Shown here one piece after another: positions 15,061 to 32,061 of a stretch of DNA of 64,000 nucleotides. Numbering within the stretch: the stretch's first letter is position 1; every line of letters begins with the position of its first letter. Source of the DNA: Xanthobacteraceae bacterium (lineage in GTDB: Bacteria; Pseudomonadota; Alphaproteobacteria; Rhizobiales; Xanthobacteraceae); assembly GCA_022844485.1 (NCBI GenBank), contig JALHLQ010000005.1, positions 1 through 64,000 of the forward strand, given 5' to 3'. The notes under the pieces were generated by a model. That model had not been told where the DNA came from. It ran no database searches and was given only the letters and a program-made list of their open reading frames with translations. Made by a program: the position numbers and the translations under genes.

Positions 15061-15138
15061 CTCGTGTGGCGGTTCAGAAGTCCGCATCATTCTTGCCGCA
15101 AGTCCCGGATGCGGACTTCTGAACCAAAGCCACCCTAG
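15061..15138 (+). repeat. CTAG palindrome element A
   Basis: Perfect 18-bp arms GGTTCAGAAGTCCGCATC (15071-15088 and complement at 15108-15125) enclose a 19-base loop. The stem continues outward through GTGGC/GCCAC to CTCG on the left and CTAG on the right. The right arm has three extra bases (AAA) relative to the left. Confidence 0.75.
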
Positions 15139-15150
15139 ATCAATAAGTTG

Positions 15151-15225
15151 CTAGTGTCCTTCGATTCCGAAGTTCGCAAACGAGGGTGCCGCACAATAAT
15201 GCGAACTTCGGAATCGGGACACTAG
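15151..15225 (+). repeat. CTAG palindrome element B
   Basis: Terminal CTAGTGTCC...GGACACTAG with inner arms GATTCCGAAGTTCGCA (complement at 15200-15215) and a 21-base loop. The left arm has two extra bases. It is separated from element A by a 12-base linker ending AAGTTG. Confidence 0.8.
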
Positions 15226-19208: not shown

Positions 19209-20369
19209 TCAAATCACGTTCAGTTCGCGCATCGCGCGGCCCGTCATGATGCGCTCGTAGCCGAAAACGGAGAGATCGAGCGAACGATAGCGGCCCAGCA
19301 CGATCAGTTCAGCGATGGCGCGTCCGACGGCCGGCGCCTGCTGCAGGCCGTGGCCGGAAAAGCCGTTCGCAAAAAGGAAATTCGCGATCTGCGGATGCGG
19401 GCCGAGAATCGCGTTCTGATCGAGCGTGTTGAAATCGTAATGCCCGGCCCAGGCGCGCACGAGCTTCAGCGCTTCCATCGCCGGAATGCGGTTCGCGAGC
19501 GCGGGCCAGATCATGTCGTCGAACAGCGCATCGTCGACCTCGAGATCGTCGGCCCGCGCGTCGTCTTGCGGGGAGATTCCGCAGATGTAAACCTGTCCCT
19601 CCGGACGCAGCCACGCGCCGCTGGTATCGACGATGAGCGGCATGCCGGGCAGCGGCGCGCGGCAGTCGGCAACGAACACGCAGCGCTTGCGCGGCTCCAC
19701 CGGAAGGGGAATTTCCGCCAGCGCCGCAAGATCGCCGGCTTGCGGGCCTGCCGCATTGACGAGCGTGCCGCAGGCGATGCGCCGGCCATCGGCGAGGCTA
19801 ACGGTTTCGATGCGGTTGCCTGCGCGCGAAATTGCGACGACCTCTCCGTGCAGGTACGCCGCACCGCCTTTGTGCGCCGCGCGGCGCAGCAGCGTCAGCA
19901 GCGCATGCGCATCGAACCAGCCTTCGCCCGAGCGGCCGAAGCTGCCGAGCGCAAGATCGTCGGTCCTGAGCCAGGGCCAGCGGGAGGCGACCTCGCTTGG
20001 CGTCATCTGGATGATGTCCGCCCCTTCGCCGCGCTGGATCGCGTGATTGCGCTCGAGCGCCGCGCGCCCCGCTTCGCCTGCGAGCAGGAGATAACCGTTT
20101 TCGCGGAAACCGATGTCGGCATCCGCGCCGAAGCGCTCCGTCACGGTGCGGAAGAACTCCACGCCGAAGCGGCTCATGCGGATGTTCTCCGGCGTGGAAA
20201 ATTGCTGGCGGATGGAGGCCGCCGACAGCGTCGTCGCCGCGCGCGCGTAAGAGGGATCGCGCTCGATCACGGCCACGGAGCCGGCGAACCCGAGATCGTG
20301 GTTGAGGAAATAGGCGACGCTCGAACCGATCGCGGCGCCGCCGACGATGACCACGTCGTAGTGCTGCAT
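19209..20369 (-). CDS. FAD-dependent amine/amino acid oxidoreductase (DAO family)
   Basis: The 386-residue protein begins MQHYDVVIVGGAAIGSSVAY, a GxGxxG-type FAD site (with GGAAIG). Further DAO features are SAASIRQQFSTPENI, a central substrate region, and the C-terminal ANGFSGHGLQQAPAVGRAIAEL, which contacts FAD. Such enzymes (sarcosine, dimethylglycine or FOXRED1-like dehydrogenases) oxidise secondary amines or amino acids. The substrate cannot be inferred from the neighbours. Confidence 0.85.
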   Translation of the reverse strand: MQHYDVVIVGGAAIGSSVAYFLNHDLGFAGSVAVIERDPSYARAATTLSAASIRQQFSTPENIRMSRFGVEFFRTVTERFGADADIGFRENGYLLLAGEAGRAALERNHAIQRGEGADIIQMTPSEVASRWPWLRTDDLALGSFGRSGEGWFDAHALLTLLRRAAHKGGAAYLHGEVVAISRAGNRIETVSLADGRRIACGTLVNAAGPQAGDLAALAEIPLPVEPRKRCVFVADCRAPLPGMPLIVDTSGAWLRPEGQVYICGISPQDDARADDLEVDDALFDDMIWPALANRIPAMEALKLVRAWAGHYDFNTLDQNAILGPHPQIANFLFANGFSGHGLQQAPAVGRAIAELIVLGRYRSLDLSVFGYERIMTGRAMRELNVI

Positions 20370-20409: not shown

Positions 20410-20485
20410 CTAGTGGTCCGATTCTAACATTCGCATCCCGTTGCGGCAGGCCATTTTGCGAATGTTAGAATCGAAGGACCACTAG
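20410..20485 (+). repeat. CTAG palindrome element C
   Basis: CTAGTGGTCC...GGACCACTAG ends with inner arms GATTCTAACATTCGCA (complement 20457-20472) and a 21-base loop. The right arm carries three extra bases (AAG in TCGAAGGACC), the same polarity as element A. Confidence 0.8.
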
Positions 20486-20498
20486 CAAATTCAAGTTG

Positions 20499-20573
20499 CT
20501 AGTGGAGTTTTGGATTTGACATTCGCTTGTGAACCCGCTGCTAGATGGGCGAATGTCAAATCCACTCCACTAG
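20499..20573 (+). repeat. CTAG palindrome element D
   Basis: CTAGTGGAG...CTCCACTAG ends with inner arms GGATTTGACATTCGC (complement 20549-20563) and a 22-base loop. The left arm has three extra bases (TTT), as in element B. The linker from C is 13 bases and again ends AAGTTG. Confidence 0.8.
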
Positions 20574-20606: not shown

Positions 20607-21482
20607 ATGACCATCCGTCCGCGCCGCAGCGTGCTCTACATGCCCGGATCGAACGCGCGCGCGCTGGAGAAGGCGAAGACGCTTCCCGCCGACGCGCTGA
20701 TCCTCGACCTGGAAGACGCGGTCGCGCCGGACGCGAAGGATACGGCGCGCAACCAGGTCGCCGAGGCCGTGCGCGCGGGCGGCTACGGCCATCGCGAGAT
20801 CATCATCCGCATCAATGGGCTCGATACGCCGTGGTGGATCGATGACCTCGAAGCGGCGGCCAGGGCGAAGCCCGACGGCATCCTGCTGCCGAAAGTGTCC
20901 ACGCCCGACCACCTGATGGGAATCGCCGATCGGCTCGGCGACATCGGCGCCGAGCATTCCATCCGCGTCTGGGCGATGATGGAGACGCCGCTCGCCATCC
21001 TCAATGCGCGCGACATCGCGGCTGCCGCGCGCGATGCCGAGACGCGGCTCGCCGGCTTCGTGCTCGGCACCAACGATCTTGCCAAGGAGACGCGCGCGCG
21101 CATCGTTCCGGGCCGCGCGCCGATGCTGCCTTGGCTGATGACGGCAGTGGCGGCGGCGCGCGCTTTCGGGCTCGACGTCATCGACGGCGTCTTCAGCGAC
21201 ATCAACGATGCGGAAGGATTAGCGCGCGAATGCGCCGCGGCGCGCGACATGGGGTTCGACGGAAAAACGCTCATTCATCCGAATCAGATCGCGCCCTGCA
21301 ACGCGGCGTTTTCGCCCGGCGCGGCGGAGGTGGAGCAGGCGGCGGCGATCATCGCCGCGTTCGACCGGCCGGAAAACAAGGGCAAAGGCGCGATCCAGCT
21401 CGACGGGCGCATGGTCGAGCGCATGCATGCGGAGATGGCGCGGCGCACGGTGGCGGTCGCGCAAGCGATTGCCGGCCGGTAG
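20607..21482 (+). CDS. HpcH/HpaI-family CoA ester lyase (CitE / malyl-CoA lyase type)
   Basis: The ATG at 20607 follows GAGGGA and gives 291 residues; a TTG 21 bases upstream is less likely. The TIM-barrel lyase has RRSVLYMPGSN at the N terminus, the metal and substrate motif LILDLEDAVAPDAK, the ETPLAILN segment with the metal-ligand Glu, and GVFSDINDAEG with the ligand Asp. The family cleaves malyl-, methylmalyl- or citramalyl-CoA. With the mesaconyl-CoA hydratase-like gene at 8.1-9.2 kb it would fit the ethylmalonyl-CoA route of acetate/C1 assimilation, but crotonyl-CoA carboxylase and ethylmalonyl-CoA mutase are not in the window. Confidence 0.83.
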   Translation: MTIRPRRSVLYMPGSNARALEKAKTLPADALILDLEDAVAPDAKDTARNQVAEAVRAGGYGHREIIIRINGLDTPWWIDDLEAAARAKPDGILLPKVSTPDHLMGIADRLGDIGAEHSIRVWAMMETPLAILNARDIAAAARDAETRLAGFVLGTNDLAKETRARIVPGRAPMLPWLMTAVAAARAFGLDVIDGVFSDINDAEGLARECAAARDMGFDGKTLIHPNQIAPCNAAFSPGAAEVEQAAAIIAAFDRPENKGKGAIQLDGRMVERMHAEMARRTVAVAQAIAGR

Positions 21483-31808: not shown

Positions 31809-32061
31809 CGGCTCCACTCCAAACGCGTTTCGCGCCCGAGGGCGCATCGCGCTGTCGGGCGTTGACCTCCGGCCTCGAAAGGGCCGGTCGGCGGCTCAGG
31901 CGAAAAATTGCGAGAGCGGCCCGAGGTTAGATAGGGGCTCGCGGCGGGAGTCAAGCATCCGGTTCGCGCCGCAAGCGGCGGAGCGGCGGCGAAACGCCCC
32001 AGGATCCGCCATGCCGCGTTCACGATTGGCGCCCTATATTCCCCCGCAACCCGAGTAGCCC

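Follow-up and report, generated by a model that had tools for sequence, protein, structure and literature searches.

The divergent intergenic gap between a gene for a FAD-dependent oxidoreductase (DAO) and one of the HpcH/HpaI aldolase/citrate lyase family is occupied for the most part by two hairpins, C and D, that are delimited by CTAG tetranucleotides. A second such pair, A and B, lies elsewhere in the window, by which we mean the whole 64-kb stretch of DNA analysed. The features are:

19209..20369, minus strand: neighbour gene, FAD-dependent oxidoreductase (DAO; PF01266)
20410..20573, plus strand: whole CD element, 164 bp, organised as CTAG-hairpin C-CTAG-linker-CTAG-hairpin D-CTAG
20411..20412, no strand: left TA within CTAG, putative target-site duplication, judged from the TA/CTAG flanks in copies and from one-CTAG empty sites
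20410..20439, plus strand: left terminal inverted repeat (TIR), CTAGTGGTCCGATTCTAACATTCGCATCCC, comprising the outer arm of C and the first loop bases
20457..20485, plus strand: inner arm of hairpin C, with three extra bases at 20473-20475
20486..20498, plus strand: linker CAAATTCAAGTTG
20499..20526, plus strand: inner arm of hairpin D, with three extra bases, TTT, at 20509-20511
20549..20573, minus strand: right TIR, outer arm of D; the minus strand reads CTAGTGGAGTGGATTTGACATTCGC
20571..20572, no strand: right TA within CTAG, putative target-site duplication on the same basis as the left end
20607..21482, plus strand: neighbour gene, HpcH/HpaI aldolase/citrate lyase family (PF03328)
15061..15225, minus strand: AB element, second subfamily (CM score 149 bits), with A at 15061-15138, linker at 15139-15150 and B at 15151-15225

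Hairpin C (20410-20485) has a perfect arm stretch of 17 bp and a loop of 21 nt, hairpin D (20499-20573) a stretch of 16 bp and a loop of 22 nt; the full stems of the element measure 25–26 bp. Both hairpins lie where the original prediction had placed them, the expected loop lengths of 21–22 bases are found, and the extra bases it described amount to 3 nt in either hairpin, on the right arm for C and on the left arm for D. The loop motif TGCCGCA/TGCGGCA claimed for A, B and C is also seen. Across the window, no perfect hairpin of at least 16 bp with a loop of up to 80 nt occurs other than A, B, C and D. Folded as single-stranded DNA, the CD pair reaches –50 kcal/mol (z = –11 against shuffles), and the element has a CM score of 178 bits (E 2.5e-44), a value obtained with the sequence itself in the training set. 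CTAG is scarce in the window, with 20 occurrences seen against about 200 expected by base composition, several of them inside elements.

An Rfam scan of the window returned nothing at gathering score on the CD element; its sole match, to the ffh sRNA family (RF01793), lies at 31825-31876 on the minus strand. A sigma-70 promoter scan was likewise negative on the element. The terminator scan revealed one weak terminator-like site at the linker and no U-tract after the main stems.

The minus strand of the AB element aligns with the plus strand of CD, such that A corresponds to D and B to C. By this alignment, AB and CD are two diverged subfamilies of one element, and not two copies of a single composite as had been proposed, while the proposal that the pair is the unit stands. 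The left CTAG of AB has decayed to CTCG. The 13-base linker predicted for both loci holds for C/D, whereas that of A/B measures 12 nt. Their common AAGTTG ending is real, but given the opposite orientation of the two elements it does not lie in homologous register. More subfamilies occur at L134, L136, L146 and L107, where AB-like and CD-like arms are mixed and both hairpins are altered together.

Copies and movement of the pair

The draft genome (4.15 Mb, 44 contigs) contains about 25 CD-type and about 17 AB-type matches, partial ones included, and several of its contigs terminate within an element. Its young full-length CD copies are 94–98% identical, with unrelated flanks. The element has no coding capacity and measures 163–170 nt in 98 of 101 copies. 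Two loci, L002 and L003 (G000 C1:313380 and C2:115302), hold decayed or chimeric elements; at L003 an A-type left end and a B-type right end flank unrelated sequence.

Of 61 related genomes, 13 contain CD relatives, as do 18 out of a class-wide sample of 289; others lie on plasmids of Aminobacter, Bradyrhizobium, Martelella, Rhizobium and Ochrobactrum. With the AB element as query, neither plasmids nor phages gave a match. A scan of public genomes yielded at least 111 stretches, in Afipia, Bradyrhizobium, Nitrobacter, Rhodoplanes, Pseudolabrys, unclassified Xanthobacteraceae and Hyphomicrobiales. One copy is common to G022 and a Xanthobacteraceae MAG (L129, L277), with element and flanks identical, which makes Xanthobacteraceae the probable family of the window. 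The element also sits on MAG contigs titled Candidatus Marinimicrobia (L222, L231, L232, L262, L273 and L284), which are probably mislabelled alphaproteobacterial DNA. No published description of the element was found.

The public scan was queried with hairpin C alone. Among the matches listed, 80 loci were taken, and all but a handful of these carry the complete C-linker-D pair; the few others form chimeras with an AB-type element or lie at the end of a contig. Order and orientation are constant across 101 copies, and linker length, which the original prediction had expected to be conserved, is exactly 13 nt in 78 of these 101 further copies. In each hairpin the extra bases number exactly 3 nt in 85 of the 101 copies; with one or two exceptions, they are located on the inner arm.

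Empty sites were sought by comparing the joined flanks of 12 Afipia elements with ten genomes. Sites filled in one species were found empty in others, and the empty ones lack both hairpins. Three of them (L322, L332 and L343) are pristine and retain one CTAG; at the remainder the element is absent and no clean CTAG is left. No one-hairpin intermediate was seen at the orthologous Afipia sites of the 12 elements in the ten genomes, in line with the prediction that the whole pair, never just one hairpin, should be missing. At L339 and L323, the Afipia counterparts of the site of L224, about 20 bases remain in an otherwise empty site, with GGACCACTAG or a variant of it at their end; these are perhaps deletion or excision scars.

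Nested insertions tell of the same unit. At C7, C37 and C3 a CD element has received an AB element in its D-linker CTAG, and a CTAG flanks the insert left and right; intact CD copies provide the paralogous empty site. Adjoining pairs elsewhere overlap by exactly four bases, CTAG. These comparisons of sequence support the pair as the mobile unit. At C3 a further IS, with a 447-aa transposase, is inserted beside hairpin D of a composite D-B-A-C (L095, G000:C3:179000-183000, at about 1100-2650), and CTCCACTAG is apparently repeated on both sides of this IS insertion.

Target site and IS630 relatives

The element starts with NTAG and finishes with CTAN, N showing a strong bias towards C and G, respectively, as expected from duplication of TA in a CTAG target. 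Young copies keep the TA while the outer base varies. Since most targets are CTAG, duplication of TA cannot be fully told apart from duplication of CTAG. ISY100 inserts into TA and duplicates it (PMC2170065), and a preference of IS630 for TA in CTAG is given in the title of Tenzen & Ohtsubo 1991, as cited in the same paper. By simple ORF calling, 38 of 130 elements provide a flanking gene with its stop codon, the TAG of their CTAG, and all of the roughly 127 elements that could be classified lie outside called ORFs. Neighbouring genes are co-directional in 78 cases, divergent in 28 and convergent in 21, with no clear orientation preference.

The left TIR of CD matches its right end in inverted orientation at about 21 of 30 positions (~70% over 30 nt). 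It resembles an IS630 end in L158, and the right TIR resembles IS630 ends in L158/L159; these best ends for the CD subfamily are only about 70% identical by hand count. For the AB outer arms, IS630-family ends in the same bacterial class are about 87–96% identical. Elements with such matching ends occur in the relatives L153 and L154 and in Roseomonas, Komagataeibacter and Bradyrhizobium plasmids, where the ends begin CTAGTGTCCCGA and have an AAGTT core; IS630s in the same family have CTAGTGG ends with cores TGACATTT or TCTAACA. Both transposases tested belong to NF033545 transpos_IS630 (NCBIfam) and DDE_3 (Pfam).

The search for a cognate transposase in this genome was negative, with no homologue of P0001 at E 1e-20. 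The sole DDE_3 transposase of this genome (C7:176587) was rejected as a partner, as its ends are ATACCAACCC. Among 14 element-rich genomes, seven gave no DDE_3 match, and no better CD-type ends were found among the IS630s of the 14. MITEs often occur without a partner transposase in the same genome. A likeness of hairpin A to IS110 records was dismissed as coincidence; the match inspected (L124) lies within IS110 coding sequence.

Given outer arms that act as TIRs at TA in CTAG, together with matching IS630 ends, we most likely see here a MITE some 165 bp long, non-autonomous and belonging to the IS630 family (Tc1/mariner superfamily). At 164–169 bp the element is short, and it is non-coding and dispersed among unrelated flanks, and has TIRs, TA duplication and IS630-like ends. 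It shares TA in CTAG, TIRs and similar ends with IS630/ISY100 and IS630-family MITEs, and with the latter the lack of coding capacity. It differs from IS630 in that its ends fold to 25–26-bp hairpins with a 3-nt bulge on the inner arm, whereas the IS630 ends examined do not form hairpins.

Arm covariation and rival explanations

The covariation of arm bases that the original prediction proposed to examine is strong. Of the arm cells, 96.6% are paired, and double changes occur in 35 of 51 pairs, with 165 double-change cells (9% of cells) against 36.7 in shuffles; G-U pairs make up about 1.5%. In the D hairpins, 221 cells are double changes, 11 are G-T and 34 are one-sided in other ways. At the target-derived position outside the TA, inner and outer arms have changed together in five of seven cases, and matched outer-base changes give a Fisher p of 5e-6 from a 2x2 table filled by hand. 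Relative to C7, hairpin A at C3 has an inverted loop and has lost its bulge. Orthologous Afipia copies diverge by 1.7% in the arms, 7.1% in loops, bulges and linker and 11.4% in the partly coding flanks, in six comparisons at four sites with short helices predicted within loops scored as arm; the arm changes are one-sided.

Such covariation, and arms far less diverged than loops and flanks, could point to a structured RNA or regulatory element (a terminator, processing site or sRNA) under selection for RNA structure, with mobility secondary; as Rfam holds no match, an undescribed RNA is conceivable. We nevertheless regard this as unlikely. G-U pairs are rare next to double changes, the paired changes extend into target-derived flank bases, the gene context is without clear orientation preference, and the main stems are not followed by a U-tract, the one terminator-like site at the linker being weak. 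Template switching between inverted repeats, as reported in PMC8604942, homogenises arms and inverts spacers, and it has been reported to maintain hairpins (PMC8794818). Paired changes reaching into target-derived bases and the inversion of a loop are what template switching at the DNA level would produce. The low divergence of the arms and the one-sidedness of their changes suggest that the ends may in addition be under selection, or that gene conversion may occur among copies.

In outward form the pair recalls REP/BIME systems: its hairpins are inverted relative to each other, and each bulges asymmetrically and stands on a tetranucleotide. On that reading every hairpin would be mobilised on its own by a RAYT (Y1 HUH) transposase, and a pair would represent the BIME-type inverted arrangement. 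Here, in contrast, the stems (25–26 bp) and loops (21–22 nt) are longer, CTAG is left on both sides, the unit is the pair, and it is DDE-type IS630 elements that have matching ends. Nor is there a consistent RAYT: Y1_Tnp (PF01797) is absent from eight of ten element-bearing genomes, and this genome has one weak match (E 7.5e-6). A REP/BIME origin is very improbable. Much the same holds for a reading of C and D as two separate solo-hairpin MITEs with frequent insertion next to each other. CTAG does bound each hairpin on both sides, lone D hairpins occur occasionally (for example L060, C27:46517-46594), and chimeras exist at L251, L260 and L263. Independent hairpins would, however, be at odds with 101 copies that agree in linker length, order and orientation and with empty sites that lack the whole pair, and lone hairpins are few and consistent with deletion.

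Other repeats of these bacteria were also compared. The rhizobial RIME, AB, C and Sm elements are intergenic and repeated, with conserved sequence and secondary structure (PMC2573895). The present element is likewise intergenic, repeated and structured, a likeness drawn for RIME from its description, and the pair model gave no match in the 3.7-Mb S. meliloti pSymB record. Br-REP1 and Br-REP2 are intergenic palindromes of Bradyrhizobium, from the same bacterial family (PMC5082802). Br-REP1 (CCGGAATCTCGAGATTCCGG) and Br-REP2 (CGAGATTCCGGGTTCGGCTCTT-...) were rejected as relatives, since their consensus sequences differ and they lack a CTAG-bounded pair.

A proposed doubled-end model and its implications

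Returning to the IS630-family MITE, an IS630 transposase acting in trans would bind the outer arms and cut at the TA of the element ends, and the whole pair would be inserted into TA in CTAG with duplication of the TA. In the inner arms the outer end recurs in inverted form, its core separated by three bases from the 10 bases next to CTAG. IS ends do not fold into hairpins, so inner arms are peculiar to the MITE. As inverted copies of the outer end whose core lies 3 nt out of phase from their CTAG, the inner arms may block cleavage at the inner ends. With their core so shifted, the inner arms would be unusable as ends, so that the pair would move as one. After insertion, arm complementarity would be maintained at the DNA level by template switching between the arms, a step partly borne out by the paired changes.

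We thus hypothesise, tentatively, that both ends are accompanied by an inverted copy of their own sequence, 3 nt out of phase, that only the outer one is usable, and that the arms are rewritten by template switching, so that the copies record mutation; we hold this fuller model to be possible rather than probable. The doubled-end form is a new form of IS630-type MITE. What is new is the bulged snap-back hairpin at each end, which is absent from IS ends, and the paired arm changes.

These findings name and explain a widespread, apparently undescribed repeat of the Xanthobacteraceae (Afipia, Bradyrhizobium, Nitrobacter, Rhodoplanes and others), which interrupts assemblies and frequently overlaps the stop codons of genes. 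Moreover, with matched arm changes in hundreds of copies, both dispersed and orthologous, it provides data to separate RNA selection from DNA template switching as the cause of covariation, a distinction of consequence since covariation is commonly taken to prove that an RNA is functional.
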